From positions 1-40,186 of the forward strand of contig JANQKE010000123.1 of NCBI GenBank assembly GCA_028281265.1: DNA of 40,186 nucleotides, given 5' to 3'. Numbering within the stretch: the first letter of the stretch is position 1; every line of letters begins with the position of its first letter. The stretch comes from Alphaproteobacteria bacterium (GTDB taxonomy: Bacteria > Pseudomonadota > Alphaproteobacteria > DSM-16000 > Inquilinaceae). A program made the translations under genes and the position numbers. A model generated the notes under the pieces. The model had not been told where the DNA came from. It ran no database searches and worked only from the letters and a program-made list of their open reading frames with translations. Of the stretch, positions 6,238-36,382 are shown piece by piece.

Positions 6238-6243
6238 GGCATC

Positions 6244-6263: not shown

Positions 6264-6288
6264 GGACGCCACCGCCCCCCCGACGACG

Positions 6289-6318: not shown

Positions 6319-6383
6319 TGATTGCGGCGGTGAGCCCGCAGCCGGTCCGCGGCCGGAGAGCGCGGCCGGCCCGGCTCGGGGCC

Positions 6384-8706: not shown

Positions 8707-8922
8707 CCGGCGGCGGCGCCCCCTCGTGACCGATGCCATGACCGACGCCATGATCGGCCTGTGCGTGGTGCCGGGGATCGGCGCCGGCCCGGCTGCCCGG
8801 ACGGCCGGTCGATCCCGACCGGCAGCCCGAGCGTTCGTTCGGCCGACGCGCTTTCCGACCGGCCCGGCCGGTCTTGTGGCGGGCCGCCCCGGCCCGGCCC
8901 TGGTCCCCGATAGAGGCATCCG

Positions 8923-10334
<1,412 letters not shown>

Positions 10335-14729: not shown

Positions 14730-17700
14730 TCTGTTCGGCTGTCACCGTCCCTCAGCCATGCCTCGGGCACGCCAACCGCCCCGTCCAAGTTGATCCCCTT
14801 GGGCCTATATGAGTCGACTTTGGCCCCCGTCAGGACCGCATCGCGCAGATCAGCTTGCTCGAGCTTCGCACGCTTCAAGCTTGCACCCATCAAGTTTGAC
14901 TCTCTTAAGTTTGCTTTGCGGAGATCGGAACCATCAAGGATAGCTCGATCAAGACTGGCTGCATGAAAGTTCGCGCCTTGAAGTAAAGCGTCTTGAATGA
15001 TCGCTCCTTGAAGAACCGAGTTCCGAAGAATGGCATTTGAGAAATCAGCATTGCAGAGATTTGCATTGCTGAAAATTGAACTATTCAGCCTTGAATTACA
15101 GAATTTAGCTCTGGAGAGCAAAGCATTTCGAAAATTACATTCCTCGCAATTGGTGTTTTGAAGGAGCGCGCCCTCAAGATGCGCAGAGCGAAGAACAGCG
15201 TTTCTCAGTCGAGCGCCTTCAAGAACAGCATCCCTAAGCACCGCGTTCTGAAGATTTGCGGAATCGAGATTTGCACCACGCAAGTTTGCGCCCTCGAGAT
15301 TCGCACTCTGAAGAGATGTATTCTGAAGAAACGCGTCCTTCAGATCAGCGCTGGATAGATCTGAGTTCATCAGGCTGGAACCCTGAAGCTCTGAACCAGC
15401 TAGACAAGCATCACGAATATTTGAATTCTGAATGTTAGCGTTTCGGATGTCTGTGCCTCTAAAGCAAGAAAAGCTGAGGTTGGAGCCTTCAAGTGTTGCT
15501 CCTCGCATGACAGTCCCACTAAGATCTGCATTCTCAAGATCAGTACCGTAGAGGTTTGCGTCAACAAGGTCCAACGCGGAAAGATCGGCATTACTCAGAT
15601 CCCAGCCTGCCAAATGAAATGAGATAGCTGGACAACTCTTGCCGACCGCGCCATTGAAGTGCGGCACTTGTGATTTAGATATAGCACCATCGAGCACAGC
15701 AACCGCGTATCGCATCAGCATGGTTTCCTGATGACGTGTCCGTGCCCGCAGCCGACATAACAGGCGGAACAGGGGATCGTCCGTTGCGCCCTCCTTCGAC
15801 GAACCGGTCAAGGACGGCAACCGACACAGGTAATCGGCATCCTGATCCGCTTGGATGGTCTCACGGTCGCCTTCGCCCGTTGGGGAATCAGATCGGCCGT
15901 GGCCCACCACCCTCGCCTTCAAGACACCATGGCAAGCCCCGAGCGTTGCCATGAACGCCGCTTCGGTGTTTGCACTCTGCTCCAACAATGTGGGGGCACG
16001 GGTTAGCCGATCGGTGATGGGCAAGCCTGCCTGCAGCACATGGTCGAAAACCTTGCACAGCGTGTCCTTGGCGTGGACGAGGCCGTTGCGGTCCTGGGCT
16101 TCCCAAATCCGGATCTCGTCCACGAAGAAGCCTTGCAGATCGAGATCCCAAGCGGCGGCTGCCGTGGCCGCCCTCCACTCGTCGGCTGCATTATCCAGAC
16201 CATAGCCCTGCCGGTGTAGAGCGGGCTGGTCGAGTTGATGAGTGATGTTCTCGATCAGGCCGCGAAGAAGCCGGGCCGTCAAATACTCTCGAAAGCTCTT
16301 GTGGGTGAAATCGTAAGCATCCGGTTGATCGGCTCGCCGCGCCTCGACGAAAAAAGAGTTCAGGATCGTGCCAAGACCCGACCCGACCTCACTGATCTTG
16401 TCCTTGAGATCCTCTCGCCCGAGCCGCACGAGGCTGCTCTCGATATCCTCTTTCCGCACCGTTCGGTCACCATGGTGCCAAGCCGCGACCGCGATGTGCT
16501 GCAAGACCTCTTGAAAGACCTCCCGATCCAGTCCGACCAAGGCTTCCGATTTGGGAGGCCGGCCTTGATAGTCCCCTGTTCCGGTTTCCCGGGCAAAGAG
16601 GTTGTCGAACAGCCGACGATAGAGATCGTTGGCCGAAGTTGCCTCGTCCCCCTGGGGGACGATCGCGACCAGGAAGTTCAGCAGGGGCTGCGCCAGCAGA
16701 TCTCGAATGGCCCGGGGGACATGGTGCCCTTGCCATCGCTCCGGAATGCCAGTGGGGTTGTGCCGGGTGGCGTGCTGGTACCCGCGCCACCATTGCTCCG
16801 CCTGATCGGCCGTCAGCGCGTCTTCCCCATCTTCGGGCTCGTATCGTGCGGTGATGGAGGGCTCTCGTGCCCCTCTCAGCCGACGCGCACTGTCTTCTTC
16901 GATCTTCAGCGCCGTCTCTTCAAGTTCGGCCTCCGGATCGTACCGGAAGCGGACGACATGCAACCGGTTCCCCGGCTGGCGAACCTGGGTCACGTCCCGG
17001 ACCGCGAGCGGCCGGCCGACGAACAGCGCGCGAACCCGTAGTCTACCGTCGTTCAGCGTCTGGATCAGGCGGCAGAGCTCGGCCACGAACTCCCGCGCCG
17101 ATCGGGCCGCCGAGCCTTCCAGCGTGGTCAACTCATCCAGCCCATCGAAGATCAGGAGGAGCGGCCCCAGCCCTTTACCCGGATCATAGTCCCGGATGAC
17201 CTCGGGGGTCAGCAGGTCGTGGCCCAGCCGGTCCGGGTGTTCGGTGTACGCCCCGACATCCCGAAGGGTATCGCCGGTTCGACGGCCGAGTCGGTGCAAC
17301 GGGACCAGGAGGACCGGCTTGTTGGCCCGCGCGAGATCCGCCGCCAGCATGCGGGCAAAGGAGCTCTTGCCGCAGCCCATTTCACCGCTGATCAGCCGGA
17401 ACGGGTCCGTCTTGTCCTCGGCCGCCAGCCAGTCCTTGATCGGCGTGTCGAGCCAGGTGAACACCCGTTCGGTGACCGGCTCCCCCTCCTCCTCCTCGCC
17501 TGGCCGGTCGAACCAGCAGCGCAAGGGGACATAGACCTGCTCCAGCGACACGGCGTGGGGGTCGTCGAGGTCGAAGTTCAGCAGCGGGCGGCGGATGTCG
17601 GTGATCAAGCTGTTCCAATAGCGTTGCCAGTTGCGGGTACGGCCCGCCGCGTCGCCTGCCGGGGTGGGCGCGAAGTAGCTGTCGATCAGGTCATAGCGGT

Positions 17701-18166
17701 CTCGGTTGGTCCGGAACTCACCATCCAGCGCGATGGTGAAGGCCTGAGTCAGTGCCCGGTCGTAGCGATCAAGATCATCCGGCGTTACCCCGCAGGCTCT
17801 AAGCGCGATGTGAAAGGTCGGGCGGATCCCCTTCAAGATCGCGACAGGCGCCTGATCGCGGAAGTAGTCCGGGCCGATCGAAAGATCCTCCGGCAGTGCC
17901 GCGACCACGCGGTCTCGGGCCGATTGAAGGGCCTCCGGACCGACGCCCGCCGGGGTGTCCTCCAGCGTTCGGACCAAGGCGTCGGCCAGGGCAGCGACCA
18001 AGAGGTCCTGGGTCTGGTCTTCCGTGGTCCGCGGGGCGTCGACGCGCTGGTACCCGAACGCCTCTCGCAGATCGTTGATGTCGTTGAGCAGGGTCGAGCC
18101 CGCTCGCCGCGCGATGATCTTGATCAGGGCGTCCGCGAACTTCGCCTTGTCGAACCGGATCGCCAT
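14726..18166 (-). CDS. NACHT-type STAND NTPase with C-terminal pentapeptide repeats
   Basis: A 1146-residue protein of NLR-like design. Residues 1-250 are a helical N-terminal region of unknown type. The NACHT ATPase follows, with Walker A GEMGCGKSS (261-269) and Walker B LLLIFDGLDELT (336-347). The helical/winged-helix part keeps FTHKSFREYLTA (620-631), a hallmark of this class. From about 858 to 1120 there are about 50 pentapeptides of A(N/D)LXX type, expected to form a quadrilateral beta-helix. ATG 18166 has GGGGGAAGG directly upstream and is preferred to a GTG at 18193. The repeat-coding part (about 14800-15700) is visibly AT-richer than all neighbours, a sign of transfer or domain shuffling. 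Bacterial NACHT proteins include antiphage sensors; that role here is inference. Confidence 0.85.
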   Translation of the reverse strand: MAIRFDKAKFADALIKIIARRAGSTLLNDINDLREAFGYQRVDAPRTTEDQTQDLLVAALADALVRTLEDTPAGVGPEALQSARDRVVAALPEDLSIGPDYFRDQAPVAILKGIRPTFHIALRACGVTPDDLDRYDRALTQAFTIALDGEFRTNRDRYDLIDSYFAPTPAGDAAGRTRNWQRYWNSLITDIRRPLLNFDLDDPHAVSLEQVYVPLRCWFDRPGEEEEGEPVTERVFTWLDTPIKDWLAAEDKTDPFRLISGEMGCGKSSFARMLAADLARANKPVLLVPLHRLGRRTGDTLRDVGAYTEHPDRLGHDLLTPEVIRDYDPGKGLGPLLLIFDGLDELTTLEGSAARSAREFVAELCRLIQTLNDGRLRVRALFVGRPLAVRDVTQVRQPGNRLHVVRFRYDPEAELEETALKIEEDSARRLRGAREPSITARYEPEDGEDALTADQAEQWWRGYQHATRHNPTGIPERWQGHHVPRAIRDLLAQPLLNFLVAIVPQGDEATSANDLYRRLFDNLFARETGTGDYQGRPPKSEALVGLDREVFQEVLQHIAVAAWHHGDRTVRKEDIESSLVRLGREDLKDKISEVGSGLGTILNSFFVEARRADQPDAYDFTHKSFREYLTARLLRGLIENITHQLDQPALHRQGYGLDNAADEWRAATAAAAWDLDLQGFFVDEIRIWEAQDRNGLVHAKDTLCKVFDHVLQAGLPITDRLTRAPTLLEQSANTEAAFMATLGACHGVLKARVVGHGRSDSPTGEGDRETIQADQDADYLCRLPSLTGSSKEGATDDPLFRLLCRLRARTRHQETMLMRYAVAVLDGAISKSQVPHFNGAVGKSCPAISFHLAGWDLSNADLSALDLVDANLYGTDLENADLSGTVMRGATLEGSNLSFSCFRGTDIRNANIQNSNIRDACLAGSELQGSSLMNSDLSSADLKDAFLQNTSLQSANLEGANLRGANLDSANLQNAVLRDAVLEGARLRNAVLRSAHLEGALLQNTNCEECNFRNALLSRAKFCNSRLNSSIFSNANLCNADFSNAILRNSVLQGAIIQDALLQGANFHAASLDRAILDGSDLRKANLRESNLMGASLKRAKLEQADLRDAVLTGAKVDSYRPKGINLDGAVGVPEAWLRDGDSRTD

Positions 18167-20429: not shown

Positions 20430-21092
20430 TCAGGCCGCGGCCGCGAGGGTCGCCGCGACCTTGAACGGGGCTTCGGTCTTCGCCTTGACCTCGTCGACGG
20501 TGACGCCGTCGGCCAACTCGATCAGGGTCAGCCCGTCGGCATCGCCGCGCGCCAGGCGGAACACGGCGAGGTCGGTGATCAGAAGGTCGACCACGCCGGC
20601 CCCGGTCAGCGGCAGGGTGCAGGCGTTGAGGATCTTGGCCGCGTCGCCCTTGGCGACATGTTCCATCACCACGACGACCTTCTTCACCCCGGCGACCAGG
20701 TCCATCGCCCCGCCCATGCCCTTGACCATCTTGCCCGGGATCATCCAGTTGGCGAGGTCGCCATTGGCCGCGACCTGCATGGCGCCGAGGATCGACAGGT
20801 CGATATGCCCGCCGCGGATCATCCCGAAGCTGTCGGCCGAGGAGAAGTAGGAGGAGTGCGGCAGCTCGGTGATGGTCTGCTTGCCGGCGTTGATCAGGTC
20901 CGGATCGGCCTCGCCCTCATACGGGAACGGGCCCATGCCGAGCATCCCGTTCTCCGACTGCAGGGTCACGTGCACGCCGTCGGGGATGTAGTTCGCCACC
21001 AGGGTCGGGATGCCGATGCCGAGATTGACGTAGAAGCCGTCTTCCAGCTCCTGCGCCGCGCGGGCGGCCATCTGTTCGCGGGTCCAGGCCAT
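20430..21092 (-). CDS. scoB: 3-oxoacid CoA-transferase subunit B
   Basis: The catalytic beta subunit of a class I CoA-transferase that moves CoA from succinyl-CoA (or a similar donor) to acetoacetate or another 3-oxoacid. The 220-residue protein carries the active-site glutamate in [10 protein letters not shown] (Glu47), which forms the glutamyl-CoA thioester, and the [14 protein letters not shown] and [18 protein letters not shown] blocks. It lies 67 nt after subunit A. Succinyl-CoA:3-ketoacid transferase is the best guess; AtoA-type or 3-oxoadipate transferases are close relatives. Confidence 0.93.
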
Positions 21093-21159: not shown

Positions 21160-21870
21160 TCAGGCGGCCGCGGCGCGCGGCCGCGTGGTCAGCTTCTCGA
21201 TCGGCTTTTCGAGGGTCGCGCCCTGGATCAGCCGCTGCACGAAGATGCCGGGGGTGTGGATGTGGTCGGCGTCGATGCTGCCGGTCGGCACGATCGCTTC
21301 GACCTCGGCGACGGTGGCCTTGCCCGCCGTCGCCATCATCGGGTTGAAGTTGCGCGCGGTCTTCCGGTAGACGAGGTTGCCTTCGGCGTCGCCCCGATAG
21401 GCCTTGACGATCGACAGGTCCGCGACCAGGCCGCGCTCCATCACATAGGTCTCGCCGTCGAACTCCTTGAGCTCCTTGCCGTCGGCGACGACGGTGCCGA
21501 CCCCGGTCCTGGTGTAGAAGGCGGGGATGCCCGCCCCGCCGGCGCGGATGCGTTCGGCCAGGGTGCCTTGCGGGTTGAACTCCAACTCCAGCTTGCCGGA
21601 CATGAACAGCTCGGCGAACAGCCTGTTCTCCCCGACGTAAGAGCTGATCATCTTCTTGATCTGCCCCTTCTCCAGAAGCTTGCCCAGGCCGACGCCGTCG
21701 ATCCCGCAATTGTTGGAGATCACCGTCAGGCCCTGAACGCCGCTGTCGGCGATCACGTCGATCAGGGTCTCCGGGATGCCGCACAGCCCGAAGCCGCCGG
21801 CCATGATCACCATCTCGTCCTCGAGCAGCCCGTCCAGCGCCTCGGCGGCGGAGCTGTAGACCTTGTTCAT
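21160..21870 (-). CDS. scoA: 3-oxoacid CoA-transferase subunit A
   Basis: The alpha subunit of the heteromeric CoA-transferase. The 236-residue protein has the CoA-binding glycine motif [10 protein letters not shown] near residue 26, [24 protein letters not shown] and [15 protein letters not shown], all characteristic of this subunit. The start at ATG 21870 has ACAGGGACG upstream. It is the first gene of the scoA-scoB pair. It could activate acetoacetate made by the HMG-CoA-lyase-like enzyme encoded at 34123-35103, but the genes are 13 kb apart. Confidence 0.93.
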
Positions 21871-22363: not shown

Positions 22364-23548
22364 ATGCCCGCCATCACCCTTCCGCGCCGCCGCGCTTCGG
22401 CCATTCTGGCCGCGCTCGACCGCCAGGCGGCAACGGCGTTGCTGGGGCCCCGGCAGGTCGGCAAGACCACCCTGGCGCTGGCGATCGGGACCTCCCGCCC
22501 TGCCATATATCTCGATCTCGAATCCCCCGTGGATCGCGCCCGGCTGGCCGATCCGGGGCTATTCTTCGACAGCGTGGCCGATCGGCTGGTGATCCTCGAC
22601 GAAATCCACCGGATGCCGGAGATCTTCGCCCTCCTGCGCGGGGTCATCGACCGGGGCCGGCGCGAAGGCCGGCGCACCGGCCGGTTCCTGATCCTCGGCT
22701 CTGCCGGGGTCGATCTCCTGCGCCAATCAGGCGAGACCCTGGCCGGGCGCATCGCGTTTGTCGATCTGGGGCCGTTTTCGGTCTTGGAGATCGCGGGCGA
22801 GCGGCCGAGCCGAGAGCGGCTGTGGGTGCGGGGCGGTTTCCCGGACAGCTACCTCGCCGCTTCCGACGCGGACAGTTTCGCCTGGCGATTGGATTTCATC
22901 CGCACCTATCTGGAACGAGACGTGCCGCTGTTCGGCGCCCGTGTCCCGGCCGAGACATTGGGACGGCTCTGGACCATGCTGGCGCATCGGCAGGGCGGCT
23001 TCCTCAACGCCTCCGACCTGGCCCGGGCATTGGAGGTCAGCCACCAGAGCGTTACCCGCTACATCGACCTGCTCTGCGACCTGTTGCTGGTCCGCCGGCT
23101 GCCACCGTACAGTGCCAATATCGGCAAGCGGATGGTCAGATCACCCAAGGTGTATGTCCGCGACAGCGGTCTGGTGCACGCCCTCCTCGGCCTCGATGGG
23201 CTGCACGCGATCAGCGGCCACCCGGTCGCCGGGGCGAGTTGGGAAGGCTTTGCGATCGAAACGCTGGTGGCGGAACTGCCGCCGCGATCCCGGGCGTACA
23301 CGTTTCGCACCGCGGGCGGGGCCGAGATCGACCTGCTGATCGAATGGGCGGACGGCCGCTTGTGGGCGGTCGAGATCAAGCGGAGCCTGGCGCCGCGGGT
23401 CCGTCGCGGCTTCCGCCAGGCCTGCGCCGATCTGGCACCGGCCCGGGCCTTCATCGTCCATGCCGGCGACGACCGCTATCCGCTTGGCCCCGGTCTCGAG
23501 GCGATCGACCTCCGGACATTGGCTGCTGAACTCGCAGCGGCGACGTAG
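22364..23548 (+). CDS. ATP-binding protein, AAA_14/DUF4143 type
   Basis: A P-loop ATPase of 394 residues. The N-terminal AAA_14 domain has Walker A GPRQVGKT (28-35) and Walker B LVILDEIHRMP near 75-85. The C-terminal DUF4143 part includes the WRLDFIRTYLERDVP block, a winged-helix-like segment with VSHQSVTRYIDLL, and an end resembling a nuclease fold (GAEIDLLIEW...WAVEIKRS), close to the PD-(D/E)xK pattern D-x-E-x-K. Such genes are common in accessory DNA but their function is not established. It converges on higBA. The start is fixed by the inverted repeat and AAGGATT just upstream. Confidence 0.85.
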   Translation: MPAITLPRRRASAILAALDRQAATALLGPRQVGKTTLALAIGTSRPAIYLDLESPVDRARLADPGLFFDSVADRLVILDEIHRMPEIFALLRGVIDRGRREGRRTGRFLILGSAGVDLLRQSGETLAGRIAFVDLGPFSVLEIAGERPSRERLWVRGGFPDSYLAASDADSFAWRLDFIRTYLERDVPLFGARVPAETLGRLWTMLAHRQGGFLNASDLARALEVSHQSVTRYIDLLCDLLLVRRLPPYSANIGKRMVRSPKVYVRDSGLVHALLGLDGLHAISGHPVAGASWEGFAIETLVAELPPRSRAYTFRTAGGAEIDLLIEWADGRLWAVEIKRSLAPRVRRGFRQACADLAPARAFIVHAGDDRYPLGPGLEAIDLRTLAAELAAAT

Positions 23549-24427: not shown

Positions 24428-26068
24428 ATGCTTACCGGCCAAATGATGGACTGGCCCCTGCTGGTCTCGGCGATCCTGGAGCACGGGGCCGGCACCTTCG
24501 GCGATCGTCCGATCACCACCCGCAGCGTGGAAGGACCGGTCGTCAGCCAGACCATCGCCCGGACGGCCGTCCGGGCCCGGCGCCTGGCCAACGTCTTGCG
24601 GGTGCTCGGGGTGGAACGGGCCGACCGGGTGGCGACCCTGGCCTGGAATACCCATCGGCATGTCGAGCTGTACTACGCGATCTCCGGCGCCGGCGCGGTC
24701 TGCCACACGATGAACCCGCGACTGCATCCCAGCCAGTTCGCCTACATCCTCAACCATGCCGAGGACGGCGTCCTGTTCACCGACCTCACCTTCCTCAAGC
24801 TGATCGCCGCCGTCGCCCCCCAGCTCGAGCATCTGCGCCATGTGGTCGTGCTGACCGATCCCGCGCACATGCCCGATCCGTCCGAACTCGGGGAGCTGAG
24901 GGCGCAGGTGCACTGCTACGAGGCGCTGCTGGCGGCCGAAAGCGATCGCTACGTTTGGCCGGACCTGGATGAGCGGGCGGCCTGTGCGCTGTGCTACACC
25001 TCCGGCACCACCGGCCATCCCAAGGGGGTGCTGTACTCGCACCGCTCGACGGTGCTGCATGCGATGGGCTTCTCCCTGCCCGGTGCTGTGCCCCTGGCGG
25101 AAAGCGACGTCATCCTGCCGGTGGTCCCGCAGTTCCACGTCTTGGCCTGGGGCATCCCCTACGCCGCGGTGATGAACGGGGCCGGCATGGCGCTGCCCGG
25201 CCCGGGGCTCGACGGGGCGAGCCTGACCGCCCTGATGAACCAGACCGGTACTTCCGTCGCCGCCGGGGTGCCGACGGTCTGGCACGGTCTGATGGCCCAT
25301 TGGCAGCAGACCGGCGAGCGGGTGCCGAGCCTCGAGCGCATCGTCATCGGCGGCTCGGCCGCGCCGCGGGCGATGCTGCAGGGCTTCGAGGAGACCTACG
25401 GCATCCGAGCGATCCATGCCTGGGGCATGACCGAGACCAGCCCCTTGGGCACGGTCTCGACGCTGAAGCCCTCGCTGGCCGGGGTGGACGCCGAGACCCG
25501 CTACGCCAAGCTGCAGAAGCAGGGCCGGCCGGTGTTCGGGGTCGAACTCCGCCTCGCCGGCGGGGATGGCGCCGCTCTGCCCCATGACGGCAAGGCCGTG
25601 GGGGAGCTGATGGTGCGCGGGCCGTGGATCGCCGCCGGCTATTTCAAGCAGCCCGGCTCGCCGCTGCAGGATGGCTGGTTTCCCACCGGCGACGTCGCCC
25701 ATATCGACCCCGATCGGTACATGGCCATCGTCGACCGCACCAAGGATCTGATCAAGTCGGGCGGCGAGTGGATCAGCTCGATCGACGTCGAGAACCTGGC
25801 GATGGCGCATCCCCAGGTGGCGATGGCGGCGGTGATCGGCGTGCCGGACGACAAATGGGGCGAGCGCCCGGTGCTGTATGTCGTCCCGTCGGTAGAGCGG
25901 GACGCCGATCCCGACACCCTGCGCGCCTTTCTGGCGGAGAACCTGGCGCGCTGGCAGGTGCCGGACCGCATCGTCCTGGTCGACGCCCTGCCCCTGGGCG
26001 CCACCGGCAAGGTCAAGAAGTCGGCCTTGCGCGAGCAGTGGGCGGCCGGGCATCACGCCACCGGGTAG
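24428..26068 (+). CDS. Fatty acyl-CoA ligase (AMP-forming)
   Basis: An acyl-adenylate-forming enzyme that activates a fatty acid with ATP and CoA. Of 546 residues, the P-loop-like motif YTSGTTGHPKG lies near 197-207, followed by VPQFHVLAWG, the AWGMTETSPLG adenylate-binding motif, the GWFPTGDVA hinge region and the catalytic lysine in ATGKVKK near the end. The block pattern is that of medium/long-chain acyl-CoA synthetases (AlkK-like). ATG 24428 is taken because the family-like N terminus starts here and GGGAGA lies upstream. It converges with the epimerase gene with a 16-nt overlap. Confidence 0.9.
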   Translation: MLTGQMMDWPLLVSAILEHGAGTFGDRPITTRSVEGPVVSQTIARTAVRARRLANVLRVLGVERADRVATLAWNTHRHVELYYAISGAGAVCHTMNPRLHPSQFAYILNHAEDGVLFTDLTFLKLIAAVAPQLEHLRHVVVLTDPAHMPDPSELGELRAQVHCYEALLAAESDRYVWPDLDERAACALCYTSGTTGHPKGVLYSHRSTVLHAMGFSLPGAVPLAESDVILPVVPQFHVLAWGIPYAAVMNGAGMALPGPGLDGASLTALMNQTGTSVAAGVPTVWHGLMAHWQQTGERVPSLERIVIGGSAAPRAMLQGFEETYGIRAIHAWGMTETSPLGTVSTLKPSLAGVDAETRYAKLQKQGRPVFGVELRLAGGDGAALPHDGKAVGELMVRGPWIAAGYFKQPGSPLQDGWFPTGDVAHIDPDRYMAIVDRTKDLIKSGGEWISSIDVENLAMAHPQVAMAAVIGVPDDKWGERPVLYVVPSVERDADPDTLRAFLAENLARWQVPDRIVLVDALPLGATGKVKKSALREQWAAGHHATG

Positions 26069-27171: not shown

Positions 27172-27630
27172 ATGGAGCAGCCGTTAGGACCGCATGAGAC
27201 CGCTGCCGTGACCCAGCAACCGCCCCCCGCGCCGGCCGGCGCCGAAACGCCGGAACCCGATCGCATCCACCTGATCGATCTGCGGTTCGCCGCCCGGATC
27301 GGCGTCCACGACCATGAGCAGGGGCGACAGCAGGCCATGGCGGTGGATATCGAGATCGAGCTGCCGCCGCGGACCCGGATTGACGACCGGATCACCTCGG
27401 TCGTCGACTACGACCGGTTCCGGCAGGCCGTGCTGCACCTCGCCGCATCCCGCCACTTCAACCTGCTCGAGACCCTGACCGAGGAGATCGCACGGGCCTG
27501 CCTCACCCCCGTCCCGGTGGGTCGCGTGCGGGTGCGCTGCCGCAAGCTGCACGTCTTTCCCGATGCCGGCGGCGTCGCCTACGAGGTCGTCCGGTCCAAG
27601 CCGGACCGTCAGGCCGCGGCGGCCCCCTGA
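27172..27630 (+). CDS. folB: Dihydroneopterin aldolase
   Basis: The folate-pathway enzyme that cleaves 7,8-dihydroneopterin to 6-hydroxymethyl-dihydropterin and glycolaldehyde. The 152-residue protein has a variable 30-residue tail and then the FolB core: DLRFAARIGVHDHEQ near 36-50, TSVVDYDRF, and NLLETLTEEIA with the conserved ETL. The C-terminal catalytic Lys region reads VRVRCRKLHVFPDAGGVAYE. A GTG at 27208 is an alternative start that would trim 12 non-conserved residues. No other folate genes lie nearby. It overlaps the convergent MFS gene by 22 nt. Confidence 0.92.
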   Translation: MEQPLGPHETAAVTQQPPPAPAGAETPEPDRIHLIDLRFAARIGVHDHEQGRQQAMAVDIEIELPPRTRIDDRITSVVDYDRFRQAVLHLAASRHFNLLETLTEEIARACLTPVPVGRVRVRCRKLHVFPDAGGVAYEVVRSKPDRQAAAAP

Positions 27631-28823
27631 CGGGCACAGCGCCCTGCCGCCAGGGCACCCAGGGCCGCCGGGACGGCAAGGGCGGCATAGGCGGCGCCGT
27701 AGCCGCCGAGCAGCCCGTAGAGCAGGACGAAGCCGGGCGGGCCGGCCATCACCCCGGCGAAGGTGGCCGCGGTGGCGATGCCGGTGGCGGCACCGATCCG
27801 GCCCGGCGGCACGTGACGGACGACCTCGGCCATGTAGACCCCGTTCCAGCCGACGGCCGTGGCGCCGAACAGGCTGGCCAGGCCGAACACCATCACCGGC
27901 GGCGTGTCGGCGGCGAGCAGCGCCACGCCGAGACAGCACAGCAGCGTCAGCCCGCCGATCGCGGTCAGCACCAGCCCGTTCCGGCCCAGCCGGTCGGCCA
28001 GCCATCCCCACCAGATCCGCCCGACCACCCCGGCGACCTGGACGGTGGCGAGCAGCGTGCCGGCGGCGACGATGCCGAAGCCCAGCTCCGTCACCGCCAG
28101 GGTGACGATGAACGCCATCAGGCAAAGCTGGATACCGGCATAGAAGAAACCGCACAGGCACAGCCAGCGGAGCGTAGGGTGCCGGACCATCATGCCGAGA
28201 TCGGCTCCCAGGGTGCGGCCGATCGGCGCCCGGGGCGTCCGATCGTGATCCCAGTCCGGCCGCAGCGGTGCGATGGCGAGCGCCAGCCCCAGGGCGATCG
28301 GCGCGATCAGTGCGATCGCCGCCTGCCAGCCGAAGGCCACCGCCACCCACGGGGTGACCAGGCCGGCCGCCACCCCGCCCAGCGGCACCCCGGTCTGCTT
28401 GAGCGAGAAGACCAGGCTGCGGTTGCGGGGGCCCGCGTGCCGGGCCAGCAGGTGGGAGGCCGAGGGGTTGGTCAGCCCGTAGGCGAAGCCGATCGTCAGG
28501 CTCGCCAGAGCGATCGCCGGCAAGGTGGGCAGGCTGGCGATGCCGACGCCCAGAGCCAGGGCCAGGAGACTGAGCTGGCTGACCCGGGCCGCCCCGAACC
28601 GGGTGATCAGCCCGCCGGCCAGCACCGACAGGATCGTCGCCACCGTGTAGATCAGCCCGATCTGGTAGCCGATCAGCACCGGCGGCAGATCGAAGCTGGC
28701 GGCCACGGCCGGGGCCACCGCCGCCAGGCCCAGGGCCGACCAGGAGGCCATCACCTGGGTCAGCAGGGTGGCGGACAGCGCCGCCGGCAGCCCGCCCGCC
28801 CGGCCGGGGGAAGTCTCGCGCAT
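27609..28823 (-). CDS. MFS transporter
   Basis: A major facilitator superfamily permease of 404 residues with about 12 hydrophobic helices. The loop between helices 2 and 3 reads GGLITRFGAARV, and helix 5 has the SLKQTGVPLGG pattern seen in metabolite MFS carriers; the symmetric loop GWLADRLGRNG opens the second half. The start at ATG 28823 is 8 nt after the SDR stop, which places it as the last gene of the TRAP/SDR operon. The substrate is unknown; a carboxylate related to the TRAP substrate would suit the context. Confidence 0.9.
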   Translation of the reverse strand: MRETSPGRAGGLPAALSATLLTQVMASWSALGLAAVAPAVAASFDLPPVLIGYQIGLIYTVATILSVLAGGLITRFGAARVSQLSLLALALGVGIASLPTLPAIALASLTIGFAYGLTNPSASHLLARHAGPRNRSLVFSLKQTGVPLGGVAAGLVTPWVAVAFGWQAAIALIAPIALGLALAIAPLRPDWDHDRTPRAPIGRTLGADLGMMVRHPTLRWLCLCGFFYAGIQLCLMAFIVTLAVTELGFGIVAAGTLLATVQVAGVVGRIWWGWLADRLGRNGLVLTAIGGLTLLCCLGVALLAADTPPVMVFGLASLFGATAVGWNGVYMAEVVRHVPPGRIGAATGIATAATFAGVMAGPPGFVLLYGLLGGYGAAYAALAVPAALGALAAGRCARQGAAAA

Positions 28824-28831
28824 GGGCCGGA

Positions 28832-29593
28832 TCAGAACGCCGTCGACAGGCCCCCGTCCACGGTCAGCACATGGCCGTTGACGTAGCCGGCGGCGTCGGA
28901 GGCCAAGAAGACGGCCGCGCCGGCGATCTCCTCCGGCCGGCCCCAGCGGGCCAGCGGGATGCGGGTGCGGACATAGTCGGTGACGGCTGCATCGGCGACC
29001 ATGGCCGCGTTGGTTTCGGTGGCGAAATAGCCCGGGGCGATGCCGTTGCTGGTGATGCCATGCCGGCCGAACTCCGTCGCCAGCGCCCGGGTCAGGGCGG
29101 CGAGCCCGCCCTTGGCGGCGGTATAGGCGGCGTCGTTGGCCCGGCCTTGCGGCCCCGCGATCGAGCACAGGGTGATCAGCCGGCCCCAGCCGCGGTCGAC
29201 CATACCCGACAGCACCGCCCGGGCCAGCGCGTAAGGGGCGGCGAGGTTGGTGTCGAGCATGGCCAGAAAGGCGTCCGGCGGACAATCGGCCACCGGCCCG
29301 CGGCGGCGGGTGCCGACATTGTTGACCAGGATGTCGAGGCCGAGATCGGCGACCGCCCGGTCGCGGCCGGCCGGATCGGCGATGTCGAACGCTAGGGCCC
29401 GGGCGGTGCCGCCCGCCCGGCCGATGGCCGTGACCGCCCGGGCCAGCCGCCCGGCGTCCCGGCCGTTGATCCAGACCGTCGCCCCGGCATGGGCGAGCGC
29501 CCGGGCGATCTCGAAACCCAGGCCGCGGCCGCCGCCGGTCACCAGCGCCGTGCGGCCGGTCAGATCGAACGGATGGGGCACGGGGCGGGTCAT
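28832..29593 (-). CDS. SDR oxidoreductase, gluconate 5-dehydrogenase-like
   Basis: An NAD(P)-dependent short-chain dehydrogenase of 253 residues. The cofactor motif TGGGRGLG lies at 19-26, NNVG at 91-94, and the catalytic residues are Ser144, Tyr157 and Lys161 (YTAAKGG). The N-terminal pattern FDLTGRTALVTGG and WINGRD recalls the gluconate 5-dehydrogenase group, though 3-oxoacyl reductases are close. Its ATG overlaps the dctM stop (ATGA), so it is coupled to the TRAP genes and probably oxidises or reduces the imported hydroxy- or oxo-acid. Confidence 0.88.
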   Translation of the reverse strand: MTRPVPHPFDLTGRTALVTGGGRGLGFEIARALAHAGATVWINGRDAGRLARAVTAIGRAGGTARALAFDIADPAGRDRAVADLGLDILVNNVGTRRRGPVADCPPDAFLAMLDTNLAAPYALARAVLSGMVDRGWGRLITLCSIAGPQGRANDAAYTAAKGGLAALTRALATEFGRHGITSNGIAPGYFATETNAAMVADAAVTDYVRTRIPLARWGRPEEIAGAAVFLASDAAGYVNGHVLTVDGGLSTAF

Positions 29594-30879
29594 GACATCG
29601 CGTCGGGCAGGAAGGTCACCAGGTCCGGGACCAGGATCAGCAGCACGATCACGCACAGGATCGGGATCAGGAACGGCGCGACCGCTTCGACCACCCGTTC
29701 GAACGGCATCCCGGCGATCTCGGTCAGCACGAACAGCACGTTGCCGAAGGGCGGCGTGATCACCCCGACCGACAGGGTCAGCACCATCAGCACCCCGAAG
29801 AACACCGGATCGATGCCGAGGAGCTGGATCGTCAGCATGAAGATCGGGGTGAAGATCAGCACCGCCTCCACCACGCTCATGAAGCAGCCGATGATCAGGA
29901 AGAACAGCGCGATCGCGAACAGGATGGTGGTCACCCCGACATCGAGGCTGGTCAGCATCATCGCCAGCTCCTGCGGGATGCGTAAGCGCACCAGCAGCCA
30001 GCCGTAGAAGGTGGCGATCGCGATGATGAACAGGATGATCGAGGTGAAGCGCACGGTCCGGGCCAGCACCTCGATCAGCTCCTTCACGCCGACGTCGCGG
30101 AACACCACCACGCCCAGGAACAGCGCGTAGACGCACGCGATCGCGCCCGCCTCGGTCGGGGTGAAAATGCCCGACCAGATGCCGCCGACGATGATCAGCG
30201 GTGTCAGAAGCGGCGGTAGCGCCCGCCAGAACAGCCGCGCCAGCTCCATCAGCCGGGGCCGCGGGCTGCGCGGCAGATCGATCCAGAACGACACGATGAA
30301 GCAGGTCGTCATCAGGGTCAGGCCCAGGATGATCCCGGGGATCAAACCGGCGACGAACAACGCGGCGATCGACGTCTCCGACAGCCAGCCATAGACGACC
30401 ATGGCGACCGAGGGCGGGATGATCGGGCTGATGATCGAGGCCGCACCGGTGATCCCGACGGCGAACCGCTTGGGATAGCCGCGCTCCTTCATCGCCTTGA
30501 GCTCGAGCTGGCCGATGCCGGCGACATCGGCCACGGCCGTCGCCGACATGCCGGCGAAGATCATGCTGGCCATCACGTTCACATGGCCGAGCCCGCCGCG
30601 GATGAAGCCGACCAGGGCATTGGCGAAGTCGAAGATCCGGGCGTTGACGGAGCCGACATTCATCAGGCTGGCGGCCAGGATGAAGAACGGGATCGCCAGG
30701 ATCGGGAAGCTGTTCAGCCCCCGCATCATCTGCAGGGCGAACAGCTCCGGCCGCAGGGCACCCAGGCCGCCATCGATCACCACGACGGCAAGGCAGGTCA
30801 GGCCGATCGACACCGCGATCGGCACGCCGACCGCGAACAGCACGACCATCAGGCCTAGGAAGATGACGAGATAGTCCAT
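29590..30879 (-). CDS. dctM: TRAP transporter large permease (DctM)
   Basis: The transport subunit of the second, complete TRAP system. The 429-residue protein has about 12 hydrophobic segments and the family blocks GVPIAVSIGLTCL, ILAIPFFILAASLMN, SIISPIIPPSVAMVVYGW, FTPTEAGAIACVYALFLG and VGVITPPFGNVLFV. Its start overlaps the end of dctQ by 25 nt, and its stop overlaps the SDR start. The gene order dctP-dctQ-dctM-SDR-MFS suggests one transcription unit. Confidence 0.94.
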   Translation of the reverse strand: MDYLVIFLGLMVVLFAVGVPIAVSIGLTCLAVVVIDGGLGALRPELFALQMMRGLNSFPILAIPFFILAASLMNVGSVNARIFDFANALVGFIRGGLGHVNVMASMIFAGMSATAVADVAGIGQLELKAMKERGYPKRFAVGITGAASIISPIIPPSVAMVVYGWLSETSIAALFVAGLIPGIILGLTLMTTCFIVSFWIDLPRSPRPRLMELARLFWRALPPLLTPLIIVGGIWSGIFTPTEAGAIACVYALFLGVVVFRDVGVKELIEVLARTVRFTSIILFIIAIATFYGWLLVRLRIPQELAMMLTSLDVGVTTILFAIALFFLIIGCFMSVVEAVLIFTPIFMLTIQLLGIDPVFFGVLMVLTLSVGVITPPFGNVLFVLTEIAGMPFERVVEAVAPFLIPILCVIVLLILVPDLVTFLPDAMS

Positions 30880-31394
30880 TCATCCTCCAACCGATCGAGG
30901 GCCACCATCGCGGGGCCGCGCACGACCAGGCGCAGCAGGTGGAAGCTGCTGAACAGCAGCATCGCGCCCAGGCTGACCGCGATCGCCAGATAGAGATAGG
31001 TGAAGCTGATCCCCAGCGCGGTGGTCGAGTTGTTGGCGCTGACGCTCATCATCTCCACCCCGCCGACGAAGATCAGCGCGAACAGCAACATCGATCCCAG
31101 CTCGATCGCGATCGACAGGGCGTAACGGGCCTTCAGGCCGACCCGGCGCAGCAGGACGTCGATCGCGATGTGGCGACGCTTGGACCAGGTGGCCGCGGCC
31201 CCGAGCAGGATCATCCACATCAGCAGGGCCGTCGCCACCTCCTCGGACCAGGCGACCGACAGCTTGAGCACCTGCCGGCCGAACACCGAATAGGCGATCA
31301 CCGCCACCAAGACGGCCATCAAGACGACGGCGACCGCTTCGAGGATCCGGGCGACCCCGGTTTCCAGCCGATCGAGCGCGTGCATGGGACGCAT
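30855..31394 (-). CDS. dctQ: TRAP transporter small permease (DctQ)
   Basis: The small membrane subunit of the complete TRAP system, 179 residues with four hydrophobic segments. The family core reads FGRQVLKLSVAWSEEVATALLMWMI (split by a helix boundary) followed by RRHIAIDVLLRRV. ATG 31394 is chosen; a second ATG at 31385 would remove three residues. The open frame runs further upstream but into the repeat-bearing intercistronic region. It is separated from dctP by 276 nt that hold repeat copy C. Confidence 0.88.
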   Translation of the reverse strand: MRPMHALDRLETGVARILEAVAVVLMAVLVAVIAYSVFGRQVLKLSVAWSEEVATALLMWMILLGAAATWSKRRHIAIDVLLRRVGLKARYALSIAIELGSMLLFALIFVGGVEMMSVSANNSTTALGISFTYLYLAIAVSLGAMLLFSSFHLLRLVVRGPAMVALDRLEDEWTISSSS

Positions 31395-31580
31395 CGCTTC
31401 GGATCCCGCAACTCGGCCGACCGGCAGCCCTTCGGGGGGGAGGGGCTGCCGGTGCGGACCGCAGGCCTGGATCATCCCGTGCTCCGAGAGATTCCCTCGA
31501 AGCCCGGAAGAGATGATCGGTTCCAAAAAGGTGAGAGCACCTTACCGACACCGTTTCCGGCGCAGGTCGCTCCAGATCAA

Positions 31581-31674
31581 CCCGCATTCAGAGGGACTCA
31601 TCTGAATGCGGGCACGTCGATCGACTGCAAAGAGCTAGAGCATTCTGCGCCCGTCCGGACGGAGGGTGCTCTAG
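31581..31674. repeat. Two-hairpin dispersed repeat, copy C (dctP-dctQ intergenic)
   Basis: The first hairpin is a perfect 12-bp stem CCCGCATTCAGA (31581-31592) / TCTGAATGCGGG (31601-31612) around GGGACTCA. The second part has outer stem TAGAGCA (31636-31642) / TGCTCTA (31667-31673) enclosing the palindrome CCGTCCGGACGG (31651-31662). Compared with copies B and D, two base pairs of the first stem have changed on both sides. The CTA at 31671-31673 is the complement of the dctP stop codon TAG. In the minus-strand mRNA it would form strong hairpins right after dctP. Confidence 0.8.
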
Positions 31675-32675
31675 TTGCCGGTGGCGGCGATGGCGGCGTC
31701 GATGTCCGCCTGCACGCCATCGGCCATCTCCGCCAGGGCACGCTCGACGGCCGGGGCCGCGGCGTCCCGGAAGGGCGCCTGGTCGACGTCGACGAACGTC
31801 ATCCCCCGTTCGATCAGTTGCTCACGATAATAGGCGTCCCGCTCCAGCTCGGTCCGGATGCCGTACTGCCGGGCTTCTGCGACCGCGTCGAGGATCATCG
31901 CGCGCTGGTCGTCGGTCAGCCCGTCCCACCAGGGGGCGGAGGCCACCCAGTGCCAGGGGAAGGACAGGTGGGCGGTGGTGATGATGTAGTCCTGCACCTC
32001 CCATAGCTGCCGGGTGTAGGGTGAGGCGAGGCTGTTCTCATGAGCCTCCACCTGGCCGGTGCGCATGGCGAGGTAGATGTCGGAAGCCGGGATGACCACG
32101 GCCTGGACGCCCAGCTCCTCCCACACGTCGACCCAGACCGGGATCTGCGGCAGGCGCATCGGCAGGCCGTCGAGATCGGCCGGCCCGTTGATCTCGCGGT
32201 TGGAGGTCATGTGCCGGAAGGCGCGCATCTGCGGGCCGAGATAGACGAGGTTGCCGCGCTCCCGGGCTTGGGCCTGCATCGCCCGGCCGGAGTCGGTTTC
32301 CATCAGATAGGTCTCGACCGCCTCGAAGTTCGGGAACACGAACGGCACCGAGACGGCGTTGTATTCCGGCGCGTACTGGCCCATGAACGCGCCGCCGGTC
32401 AGCGACATCTGGGTCAGGCCCAGGTTCAGCAGCTCCAGCACCTCGGATTCATCGCCGAGCTGGCTCGACAGGTAGACGTTGACCTCGAACGCTCCGTCCG
32501 AGCGTTCCGCCATGATCTCGGCGAAGCGCTGCAGGGCCGCTTCCTCCGACCCGCCGGGGTTCATGGTGTTGTGGATCTCGATGGTGCCCTGGGCCTGGGC
32601 GGCGCCGACGGTCAGGGCGGCGGCGGTCACGGCGATCGCAGCCGTCCCGCCGAGCGTGGCGATAAATCGGGTCAT
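31671..32675 (-). CDS. dctP: TRAP transporter substrate-binding protein (DctP)
   Basis: The periplasmic receptor of the TRAP system, 334 residues. Residues 1-29 are a Sec signal peptide ending in GAAQAQ. The mature protein has the DctP pattern: FAEIMAERSDGAFEVNVYLSSQLGDESEV, LGLTQMSLTG, an LDGLPMRLPQIPVWVDVW segment with the conserved arginine that contacts substrate carboxylates, and QVEAHENSLASPY. The start at ATG 32675 has GGGAGGAG upstream. The TAG stop is formed by the end of repeat copy C. It is the first of the TRAP genes, 266 nt after the CoA-transferase gene. Confidence 0.93.
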   Translation of the reverse strand: MTRFIATLGGTAAIAVTAAALTVGAAQAQGTIEIHNTMNPGGSEEAALQRFAEIMAERSDGAFEVNVYLSSQLGDESEVLELLNLGLTQMSLTGGAFMGQYAPEYNAVSVPFVFPNFEAVETYLMETDSGRAMQAQARERGNLVYLGPQMRAFRHMTSNREINGPADLDGLPMRLPQIPVWVDVWEELGVQAVVIPASDIYLAMRTGQVEAHENSLASPYTRQLWEVQDYIITTAHLSFPWHWVASAPWWDGLTDDQRAMILDAVAEARQYGIRTELERDAYYREQLIERGMTFVDVDQAPFRDAAAPAVERALAEMADGVQADIDAAIAATGN

Positions 32676-32941
32676 GGTGGTGTCGTCTCCTCCCTCAGGA
32701 CATGATTTGGGGCCGGCGGTGTCGGGGCCGCCGGCCGGGTCGGCCGGTGGGGATGGGTCCCCGTTTCTCGCCCGCGGATCGGGGCCGACGGTCCGATCCG
32801 AAAGCGTCCCCGCCTGGAGCAGGATGACATGAGGGTAAGTCACCTCCATGTCTCGATCTCGCTCTCGAAGCCGAGAGGCGGAGCGGGGGGTCGGACGTCA
32901 GGCCCGATCGCACACGCGATCGCACCCAACGCCGTCCCGCT

Positions 32942-34126
32942 CTAGGCGGTGGACGATGCCGGTCCGCCGGCCTGCAGCGGACCAAGGATCTCCTCATTGT
33001 GTGCGCCCAGCTCGGGGGCCGGCATCCGGACCCGGCAGGGCGTCTCCTTCAGTTTGACCGGAAAGCCGAGCATCCGCACCGTGCCGTGACCGGGATGATC
33101 GACGTCGAGCACCATCTCCTGGGCTTCGGTCTGCGGGTCGGCCAGCACCTCGGCCAGGTTCTGGACCTTGCCGCTGGGCACCCCGGCGGCGTTCAGCCGG
33201 TCGATCCAGACGGCCTGCGGCTCGTGCCGCATCCGCTGGTTGATCAGCGCGTTGATCTCGTCCCGCCGGGCGAAGCGCTTGCCGTTGCTGTCGAAGCGCG
33301 GATCGTCCAACAGCGCTTCGAGGTCGAGCACGCGCAAGAACCGGCGGACGATGGTGTCGTTGCTGGCGGCGACCGCGACTTCCCCGTCGGCGGCCTTGAA
33401 CAGGCCGTAGGGAGCGACCAGCGGATGGTCGTTGCCGGTGCGGGCCGGCAGCGCCCCGGTCATGAAGTACTCGGACGCGAAATAGGCCATGAACGACAGG
33501 ATGCCGTTCGTGAGCGCACTTTCGACCTTCTGTCCCCGTCCGCCGTTGAGGTCCCGCGCCCGGAGCGCATTGACCACGCCGAAGGCGGCATAGAGGCCGG
33601 CGACCAGATCGGTCACCGGCTGGCCGCTGCGCAACGGGTCCTCACCTTCCTTGCCGTTGACCGACATGAAGCCGCTCATCGCCTGGGCGATGAAGTCGAA
33701 GGCCGGCCGGTCGACGTAAGGCCCGGTGGAGCCGTAGCCGTTGACGCTGCACGTCACCAGACCCGGGTTGAGGGCTGCCAGCCGCGTGTCGTCGAAGCCC
33801 ATTCTGGCCAGCACGCCGGGGCGGTAGTTCTCCACCAGCACGTCGGCGGTCTTGATCAGCGCCGCCAGCATCGCCTTGCCCTCGTCGGTGTAGAGATCGA
33901 GGGTGACCGACTTCTTGTTCCGATTGAACATGGCGAAGTACCAGCCGAAGCCGTCCCGCAAGGTGCCCTGCCGGCGCACCGGGTCGCCCTTGCCCGGGGC
34001 CTCGATCTTGATGACCTCGGCCCCCATGTCACCCAGCAGCATGGTGCAGAACGGCCCGGCCAGCACCCGGGTGAGGTCGACCACCCGGATGCCGTCGAGC
34101 GGCGGTCGGAACGGGATGTCGCTCAT
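32942..34126 (-). CDS. CaiB/BaiF-type (class III) CoA-transferase
   Basis: A family III CoA-transferase of 394 residues that moves CoA between carboxylic acids through an aspartyl intermediate. The catalytic aspartate is Asp173 (SGQPVTDLVAGLYA). Other hallmarks are RVVDLTRVLAGPFCTMLLGDMGAEVIKIE near the N terminus (given in blocks), GDPVRRQ, FAMFNRNKKSVTLDL and VLVENYRPGV. The start overlaps the stop of the lyase gene (ATGA). A succinate-hydroxymethylglutarate-type transferase is an attractive guess because of this partner, but formyl-CoA, mesaconyl-CoA and other specificities share the fold. Confidence 0.92.
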   Translation of the reverse strand: MSDIPFRPPLDGIRVVDLTRVLAGPFCTMLLGDMGAEVIKIEAPGKGDPVRRQGTLRDGFGWYFAMFNRNKKSVTLDLYTDEGKAMLAALIKTADVLVENYRPGVLARMGFDDTRLAALNPGLVTCSVNGYGSTGPYVDRPAFDFIAQAMSGFMSVNGKEGEDPLRSGQPVTDLVAGLYAAFGVVNALRARDLNGGRGQKVESALTNGILSFMAYFASEYFMTGALPARTGNDHPLVAPYGLFKAADGEVAVAASNDTIVRRFLRVLDLEALLDDPRFDSNGKRFARRDEINALINQRMRHEPQAVWIDRLNAAGVPSGKVQNLAEVLADPQTEAQEMVLDVDHPGHGTVRMLGFPVKLKETPCRVRMPAPELGAHNEEILGPLQAGGPASSTA

Positions 34127-35103
34127 CCGCAGGCCGTCGCGACGGCGTCGAGCGGGCTGGTCGCCAGCCGCGGGCCGGCCTTCATCACCTGGCCCGGCAG
34201 CGTCCGGCCGATCAGGGTCTCCACGTCGCGGGCGATCCCGATCAGCGCGTCGAGATCGATCCCGGTCTCCACCCCGCATGCGTCCAGCAGATAGACCAGA
34301 TCCTCGGTGCAGATATTGCCGGTCGCCCCCGGGGCGAAGGGGCAGCCGCCCAGGCCGCCGACCGCGCTCTCGAACGTGGTGATGCCTTCGGTAAGGCCGG
34401 CATAGACGTTGACCAGGCCGACACCGCGGGTGTTGTGGAAGTGCAGGCTGATCTCGAGATCCGGGACGGCCGCCTTGAGCGCCCGGCAGCGATCGGTGAC
34501 CAGCGGCGGGGTCGCCATGCCGGTGGTGTCCCCCAGGGTGACGCCGATCATGCCGAGCCGGGCGAAGGTGCCGGCGATCTCGACCACCGCCTCGGTCGCC
34601 ACATCGGCTTCGAAGGGGCAGCCAAAGGCCGTGGCGATGGCGCCGTGCACCGGAATACCCGCCTCCCGGGCGATGGCGCAGACGGTCTCGAACCCGTCGA
34701 GGCTATCGGCCCGGCTGCGGTTGACGTTCTTCAGATTGTGGCTTTCCGAGGCGGAGACGAAGACGACCATCGCGTCGACCCGGGCGGCGGCGGCGGCCTC
34801 GGCGCCCCGGGCGTTCGGCACCAGGGCGGTCAATCGCGCACCGCGCGACCGGTCGGCCCCGGCCATCACCTCGGCGGCGTCGCGCAGTTGCGGCACCGCC
34901 CGGGGCGAGACGAACGACGTCACCTCAAGCTGCGGGACGCCGGCGCCGATCAGCCGGTTGACGATCGCGGTCTTGCGGGCGGTCGGGATCCACCCGGCCT
35001 CGGCCTGAAAGCCGTCCCGCGGGCCGACCTCGATCACCCGGACCCGGTCCGGGAACCCGGTGGGCCGATACCGGCCGATGGTTGCGGCTGCGCCGTCGTG
35101 CAT
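34123..35103 (-). CDS. Hydroxymethylglutaryl-CoA lyase-like enzyme
   Basis: A DRE-TIM metallolyase that cleaves 3-hydroxyacyl-CoAs; HMG-CoA would give acetyl-CoA and acetoacetate. The 326-residue protein keeps the catalytic Arg29-Asp30 (EVGPRDGFQ), the metal ligands His221 and His223 (LHFHNTRG) and the active-site Cys254 in GGLGGCPFAPGATGN. The start at ATG 35103 is directly preceded by AAGGGGGGGGGAC, whereas two upstream ATG codons have no ribosome-binding site. It is the first gene of a minus-strand cluster with the CoA-transferase and TRAP transporter. Related lyases for citramalyl-type CoA esters cannot be excluded. Confidence 0.92.
   Translation of the reverse strand: MHDGAAATIGRYRPTGFPDRVRVIEVGPRDGFQAEAGWIPTARKTAIVNRLIGAGVPQLEVTSFVSPRAVPQLRDAAEVMAGADRSRGARLTALVPNARGAEAAAAARVDAMVVFVSASESHNLKNVNRSRADSLDGFETVCAIAREAGIPVHGAIATAFGCPFEADVATEAVVEIAGTFARLGMIGVTLGDTTGMATPPLVTDRCRALKAAVPDLEISLHFHNTRGVGLVNVYAGLTEGITTFESAVGGLGGCPFAPGATGNICTEDLVYLLDACGVETGIDLDALIGIARDVETLIGRTLPGQVMKAGPRLATSPLDAVATACG

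Positions 35104-35659: not shown

Positions 35660-36382
<723 letters not shown>

Follow-up and report, generated by a model that had tools for sequence, protein, structure and literature searches.

A widespread gene pair of an HMG-CoA-lyase-fold lyase and a class III CoA-transferase with changing importers, tentatively linked to (R)-citramalate or a close 2-alkylmalate

Described counterparts and the seven-gene locus

The itaconate cluster of Pseudomonas aeruginosa (PA0878-PA0886, encoding Ict, Ich, Ccl and IctPQM) combines a tripartite ATP-independent periplasmic (TRAP) importer, a class III coenzyme A (CoA) transferase and an acyl-CoA lyase, Ccl being of the CitE type. The same combination was found in the locus studied here, a row of seven genes in a 40,186-nucleotide stretch of DNA (the window; contig JANQKE010000123.1 of assembly GCA_028281265.1, an alphaproteobacterium of the Inquilinaceae), where a lyase with the fold of 3-hydroxy-3-methylglutaryl-CoA (HMG-CoA) lyase is followed by a CoA-transferase of the CaiB family and a TRAP importer. 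Based on the conservation of the lyase-CaiB pair and its importers, a route that imports, activates and cleaves a dicarboxylate-like substrate, as the original prediction proposed, is very probable as long as the substrate is left unnamed. The substrate named there, 3-hydroxy-3-methylglutarate (HMG), is probably wrong. It is further proposed, with clearly less than even confidence, that lyase and transferase form a portable cassette, widespread and uncharacterised, for (R)-citramalate or a close 2-alkylmalate, with repeated change of importer.

IctPQM was described as the TRAP importer of the P. aeruginosa cluster (PMC12599236) and Ict as its class III CoA-transferase (PMC5592240); in engineered P. 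putida, transferase and lyase sufficed for the use of (S)-citramalate, and (R)-citramalate was not used (PMC9875883). Rv2498c, which is similar to Ccl, does not resemble HMG-CoA lyases of the TIM-barrel type in sequence, according to its authors (PMC6689899). A TRAP-fed route of this kind, which the original prediction considered little described in bacteria, therefore already exists in the P. aeruginosa cluster. By analogy, the window operon appears to parallel this itaconate/(S)-citramalate cluster in TRAP import, class III activation and cleavage by an acyl-CoA lyase. However, the P. aeruginosa cluster has a hydratase and the window operon does not, and that cluster takes (S)- but not (R)-citramalate. 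With no hydratase among its seven genes and a lyase of the HMGL type, the operon does not have the composition of an Ict-Ich-Ccl itaconate cluster.

A second counterpart is Chloroflexus aurantiacus, in which, as Friedmann and others reportedly described in 2006, a class III transferase is co-transcribed with an (R)-citramalyl-CoA lyase of the HMG-CoA lyase family. That pair acts during autotrophic growth, in the assimilation of glyoxylate rather than in uptake, and is not known to have an importer. It would share both folds with the window pair. The SUGCT of structure 9br7, which we take to be the human enzyme, is a class III CoA-transferase like the window CaiB, yet the window CaiB is as close to YfdE. 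SUGCT is mitochondrial and makes glutaryl-CoA from glutarate (PMC7426296). The leucine-pathway lyases (human 2cw6, 2ftp, 1ydo) share family and catalytic residues with the window lyase, which differs from them in tree place, pocket and genomic partners. Nothing joining such a lyase and CoA-transferase with an importer or with HMG was found in searches of an open-access library with few subscription papers, and a term search of PMC12290011 returned no mention of HMG.

The seven genes lie in a row on the minus strand, from 35103 down to 27609:

34123-35103, minus strand: lyase of the HMG-CoA lyase fold, 326 aa from the ATG at 35103 (PRK05692, Pfam HMGL-like)
32942-34126, minus strand: class III (CaiB/BaiF) CoA-transferase, 394 aa (CoA_transf_3)
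31671-32675, minus strand: DctP, TRAP solute-binding protein, 334 aa from MTRF (PF03480, 203.3 bits)
30855-31385, minus strand: DctQ, TRAP small membrane subunit (PF04290, 87.7 bits)
29590-30879, minus strand: DctM, TRAP large membrane subunit, 429 aa (PF06808, 354.4 bits)
28832-29593, minus strand: short-chain dehydrogenase/reductase (SDR), gluconate-5-dehydrogenase-like, 253 aa (PRK06124, 342.1 bits against a cut-off of 303)
27609-28823, minus strand: major facilitator superfamily (MFS) permease, 404 aa (MFS_1, 134.2 bits against a cut-off of 33.4)

DctP, DctQ and DctM all scored above their Pfam cut-offs and make up a complete DctP-type TRAP transporter. The stop codon of the lyase and the start codon of CaiB overlap in ATGA at 34126-34123, as read in the sequence, DctM and the SDR overlap by 4 nt, and the SDR and the MFS gene are 8 nt apart. 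Gaps of 266 and 285 nt flank dctP, and the remaining junctions are small or overlapping, so that a single transcript of all seven genes is plausible. Coordinates and family searches thus confirmed the gene content and order first read from the sequence. The 3-oxoacid CoA-transferase of the original prediction is indeed in the window (20430-21092 by family search, 21160-21870 by translation only), but this scoAB pair is not part of the lyase-CaiB-TRAP operon: it lies about 6 kb beyond the MFS gene, and the genes between include 22364-23548 and 24443-26068 on the opposite strand. Use of acetoacetate through this pair was considered and held weak on the same grounds.

The lyase and its CoA-transferase partner

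The window lyase reached 343.9 bits on PRK05692 (cut-off 246) and 150.9 bits on PF00682 (cut-off 29), which places it in the HMG-CoA lyase family. The eight positions that we take to be catalytic (41, 42, 72, 204, 233, 235, 266 and 275, in the human HMG-CoA lyase numbering used for all pocket residues) are all intact, and its metal and acid-base residues equal those of leucine-pathway HMG-CoA lyases. Orthologs were the best 80 of 589 lyase relatives from one scan of 84,980 species genomes, with 54-72% identity; Glu72 was replaced by Gln in 12 of them. Differences appeared in the pocket, for which 38 pocket and neighbouring residues were compared per lyase. Tyr167, Ile206 and Asp236 are Ala, Thr and Asn in the window lyase, and these three and Tyr238 were replaced in all 80 orthologs, Tyr238 being Arg already in YngG.

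The genomic meaning of Tyr167 was evaluated in a reference set of 33 lyase loci including the window, with flanks of only about 1.5 kb. Tyr167 was present in 22 of 23 lyases adjoining an MccA-like carboxylase subunit, in none of the three CaiB-adjacent lyases (window included), and in 4 of 7 with neither neighbour. It is also kept in the solved structure 2ftp, which we take to be PA2011. By experiment, PA2011 is specific for (S)-HMG-CoA (PMC6689899). Tyr167 thus goes with the leucine context, and its loss is not peculiar to CaiB-linked lyases. In the lyase tree, a starred branch (99) parts the window subfamily from human and 2ftp-type lyases, and further branches (90; 95, starred) part it from YngG; the subfamily node has a support of 88, the distant L003 and 6nds adjoin the subfamily, and long branches are present. 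The window lyase shows neither the Tyr167/Ile206/Asp236 set nor linkage to a methylcrotonyl-CoA carboxylase. On the tree its subfamily lies outside the leucine-pathway HMG-CoA lyases (human, 2ftp, YngG). The enzyme is predicted to act as a retro-Claisen lyase on a tertiary 3-hydroxyacyl-CoA and not to be of the leucine-pathway type. Active-site residues and phylogeny, which the original prediction had itself named as able to refute it, thus speak largely against HMG as the preferred substrate.

The host genome (4.33 Mb, 99.4% complete) contains, besides the window lyase, three paralogues of 40-42% identity and one remote match to 2-isopropylmalate synthase. One paralogue (L117) adjoins a methylcrotonyl-CoA-type carboxylase alpha subunit in a row that also includes an enoyl-CoA hydratase, which is the leucine context of this genome. 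A second module of CaiB and HMGL-fold lyase, arranged divergently, was observed at L115 (contig C140 of the host genome G000, 735-9081), where the lyase has Thr at 167 and the neighbours are a TAXI-type TRAP, an arylmalonate-decarboxylase-like gene and an SDR. In 16 other genomes of the same family, no lyase of more than 45% identity to the window lyase was found.

The window CaiB matched PF02515 (CoA_transf_3) with 439 bits over 10-377, and the Asp of its VTDLVAG motif aligns with the Asp in YfdE and SUGCT that we take to be catalytic in class III CoA-transferases, so it was assigned to this class. Among solved relatives, YfdE scored 268.3 bits and SUGCT (9br7) was second-best with 265.8 bits in an almost full-length match. 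On the succinate-glutarate transferase model NF052585, it reached 326.1 bits against a cut-off of 750, and it is not SUGCT-like by this measure.

With 8 CaiB-family and 19 DctP-family matches in the host genome, one adjacency alone says little. Conservation of the pair was determined at the ortholog loci, where a partner CaiB was required to have at least 45% identity to the window CaiB in the same locus, counts were made by tblastn with the L059 lyase included, and neighbour genes were grouped by codon-scored clustering of open reading frames. A close CaiB was present for 74 of the 80 lyases, within 300 nt for 72. In the two wider pairs, a binding protein (L055) or a lactonase-TRAP cassette (L085) stands between the genes. 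The orders lyase-CaiB, CaiB-lyase and divergent all occurred, so the pair is not one inherited block. Lyase and CaiB distances were correlated over 50 non-redundant loci (r 0.81; permutation maximum 0.13 in 2000 runs), a value raised in part by shared species history. Chance adjacency is excluded, because the pair is conserved across genomes, and the co-occurrence check of the original prediction was passed in this way. Among the 80 loci, most members of the subfamily came from alpha-, beta- and gammaproteobacteria, marine SAR116 among them, and Desulfobacterales and Actinomycetota contributed one locus each. In Achromobacter sp. RTa (L085, 9995-16131), a lactonase-DctPQM cassette splits lyase and CaiB, which are adjacent in the sister locus L076; this looks like a visible importer insertion or loss.

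Importers and accessory genes

Importers and permeases were counted at 81 loci, the 80 orthologs and the window, with importer types confirmed by Pfam at representative loci. TctCBA was found at 27 loci, TctC alone at 14, TAXI-TRAP at 13, DctP-TRAP at 8 and an ABC-type binding protein at one. With TctC alone treated as its own state and importer-free loci left out, at least 9 changes of importer state were required on the lyase tree. Large permease genes, counted once split matches had been merged, were concentrated around the pair, with 50 within 4 kb (at 48 of 81 loci; 595 kb of flank searched), 2 at 4-8 kb (511 kb) and 5 beyond (187 kb).

The order lyase-CaiB-DctP-DctQ-DctM was found in three other genomes, Pararhodobacter oceanensis (L035), a metagenome-assembled genome (MAG) of Geminicoccaceae (L036) and G173, which adds to the co-occurrence. 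Among 385 genomes of the class, window included, the window-type DctP occurred in three (window, G173 and G008), with CaiB beside all three and the lyase beside two. The CaiB-DctPQM genes of L035, L036, G173 and G008 each showed 51-84% identity to those of the window. At G008 (L131, 5602-10889), a gene for MeaB, the methylmalonyl-CoA mutase chaperone, follows the CaiB-DctPQM orthologues, and MeaB in the place of the lyase suggests another fate of the CoA ester.

The four lyases with CaiB-DctPQM formed one clade (93/93) inside a starred clade of 19 rows (96/95), of which the other 15 comprised 13 rows with TctCBA and two (L074, L077) with no recognised importer. The 38 compared residues of the window lyase were identical to those of six TctCBA-linked lyases, and the GntR homologue of the 19-row clade was retained at L035 and G173, in the latter as a divergent gene upstream. 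Given the shared clade and identical pocket residues, DctPQM and TctCBA appear to serve one substrate class, and the simplest reading is that one takes the place of the other for a substrate that is identical or similar. On Skermanella plasmids, TctCBA, GntR, lyase, CaiB and a lone DctP stand together. They are followed there by GntR, a second CaiB, an iron alcohol dehydrogenase, a second lyase and an aldehyde dehydrogenase (L118, 12543-18087; L120, 12527-18071). This row resembles a pathway in which an alcohol would be oxidised and the resulting acid activated and cleaved, with a mevalonate-like compound as one example.

The ligand of DctP was also sought from structure. Its AlphaFold model was middling (pLDDT 70), and VIA-align gave Z values of 18-22 for SiaP, sugar-acid binders and dicarboxylate binders including IctP, so this approach was abandoned, as no ligand class follows. 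Solved relatives of a Herbaspirillum DctP and a Halomonas TctC likewise indicated no ligand class. The SDR had been listed with the pathway, but no homologue was found in the three other lyase-CaiB-DctPQM operons; it was rejected as pathway core and is not part of the conserved unit. A homologue of the MFS gene was present at none of the 80 ortholog loci. It follows TctA in Skermanella mucosa (43%) and DctM in G173 (59%); dismissal of this gene as noise was set aside in view of these homologues, and the permease is best regarded as a putative accessory.

Three further features of the window were observed. A second TRAP membrane pair lies at 4281-6237 on the plus strand, where a DctM-like gene, which clusters with DctM, comes after a likely DctQ; no DctP was noticed adjoining it. 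At 35660-36382 on the plus strand, divergent upstream of the lyase, a gene read by translation only encodes two cold-shock-like halves with a glycine-rich joint. At 14726-18166 on the minus strand, a 1146-aa pentapeptide-repeat protein is encoded, with a G+C dip of 0.605-0.647 against about 0.68.

Substrate and proposed route

Enzymes of the HMGL fold split tertiary 3-hydroxyacyl-CoA into acetyl-CoA and a ketone, and citramalyl-CoA has the same tertiary centre as HMG-CoA, with COOH replacing CH2COOH. This exchange swaps the priorities of the Cahn-Ingold-Prelog rules, so that, by our own derivation, (S)-HMG-CoA and (R)-citramalyl-CoA are spatially equivalent. A class III transferase adjoining an HMGL-family lyase, by which the Chloroflexus pair is presumably defined, is the arrangement of the (R)-citramalate route (EC 2.8.3.20 with EC 4.1.3.46), and it is present in the window. 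Both activities have been named, as (R)-citramalyl-CoA lyase (EC 4.1.3.46) and succinyl-CoA:(R)-citramalate CoA-transferase (EC 2.8.3.20) (PMC8307300), and Rv2498c provides the mirror case, cleaving (S)-citramalyl-CoA and (R)-HMG-CoA (PMC6689899). Asn236 of the window lyase is shared with the 2-isopropylmalate synthase of the genome, a 2-oxoacid enzyme, which is a weak hint at 2-oxoacid chemistry, weak because L003, L007 and 6nds have Asn236 too. (R)-Citramalate or a close 2-alkylmalate is accordingly put forward as the candidate substrate at somewhat under even confidence.

In the route that we infer, including its reaction order, CoA donor and substrate, DctPQM would import a small branched hydroxydicarboxylate. 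The class III CoA-transferase would put CoA, probably from succinyl-CoA, on the CH2-COOH arm, and the HMG-CoA-lyase-fold enzyme would cut the bond beside the tertiary hydroxyl to give acetyl-CoA and a keto acid. From (R)-citramalate, the products would be pyruvate and acetyl-CoA, both of which could enter central metabolism without further enzymes.

Several observations weigh against this assignment or against its generality. In the pocket, Tyr167 is also absent in 6nds and in L003, L007 and L034, which have neither CaiB nor carboxylase nearby, and L012 has Ser at 167 beside MccA; besides the shared Asn236 of L003, L007 and 6nds, the CaiB-linked L002 and L010 keep Ile206, and L002 keeps Asp236. 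Six of the 80 orthologs lack a close CaiB (L074 and L077 have an adjacent CaiB of 31% identity, the other four none close by), and no importer was recognised close to the pair at 18 of the 81 loci, some of them being clipped by contig ends. In G008, which belongs to the same family as the window, no lyase accompanies CaiB-DctPQM. The best solved relatives of DctP include sugar-acid and sialic-acid binders and point to no clear ligand class. An SGL lactonase-like gene was found near the lyase at 7 of 80 loci, and citramalate forms no stable lactone. Fourteen SAR116-type loci have Asp at 167, and their operons also encode an enoyl-CoA hydratase, a dehydrogenase of the isocitrate/homoisocitrate type and a homologue of 4-oxalomesaconate tautomerase, these accessory families having been tested at L047 only. 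Finally, a class III transferase of Haloarcula was inactive on both (S)- and (R)-citramalate (PMC5592240). The SAR116 accessory genes and Asp167 indicate that the subfamily may hold several specificities and may have diversified in substrate. At L047 (1804-16165) and the 13 similar loci, the genes follow one another as lyase, CaiB, hydratase, dehydrogenase, tautomerase and AbrB-type membrane protein, and a TAXI TRAP is nearby in 13 of 14; the row could represent a fuller branched-acid pathway.

Three other explanations were considered. In one, the substrate is a tertiary hydroxy acid that is larger or forms a lactone, with homocitrate, itatartarate or a different 2-alkylmalate as examples; it would be activated and then cleaved to acetyl-CoA and a 2-oxoacid, with a lactonase opening the ring in some relatives. 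The SGL genes are scattered over the tree and, at L058, accompanied by monooxygenase-like and thiolase-like genes, homoisocitrate-type dehydrogenases recur in SAR116 and G008, and the Pseudomonas itaconate cluster includes a 2-hydroxyparaconate lactonase (PMC9875883). However, neither the surroundings of the window lyase nor the other three operons of the lyase-CaiB-DctPQM type yielded an SGL homologue, the accessory genes occur only in a minority of loci, and the SAR116 pocket differs at 167, so its substrate may differ from that of the window; this explanation is rather unlikely for the window. In the marine MAGs L058 (7401-14100) and L053, thiolase-like and flavin-monooxygenase-like genes flank the lyase-CaiB pair, with the SGL lactonase between them in L058, where a lactone intermediate is conceivable.

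Import of HMG by DctPQM, its conversion to HMG-CoA by a SUGCT-like CaiB and cleavage to acetoacetate and acetyl-CoA would agree with the PRK05692 score and intact catalytic positions of the lyase, with SUGCT as second-best solved relative of CaiB and with the 3-oxoacid CoA-transferase inside the window. Yet Tyr167, Ile206 and Asp236 are missing in the window and all 80 orthologs, the host genome has a separate carboxylase-linked lyase, CaiB stays far below the succinate-glutarate transferase cut-off, and only one of the 80 loci yielded a scoB homologue, which lies about 4 kb away from lyase and CaiB. Such rarity is expected if no acetoacetate is made, and other acetoacetate enzymes were not searched for. 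The HMG route is thus judged unlikely. Far less probable is that TRAP, SDR and MFS serve a sugar acid and are merely downstream of an unrelated lyase-CaiB pair. The best solved relative of DctP, 4pc9, which we take to be a sugar-acid binder, the gluconate-5-dehydrogenase-like SDR and its absence from the other operons would fit this, but searches with the lyase (L035, L036) and with DctP (G173, G008) both led to further cases of the CaiB-DctPQM order, at the identities given above, and throughout the set importers are concentrated less than 4 kb from the pair.

In the annotated plasmid records examined, subfamily genes carry the label hydroxymethylglutaryl-CoA lyase, and such genes are easily misread as leucine catabolism, while their context and pocket indicate something else. 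If (R)-citramalate is the substrate, the cassette would supply the enantiomer missing beside the known (S)-citramalate/itaconate route, and the TRAP and TctCBA binding proteins would gain a testable ligand.

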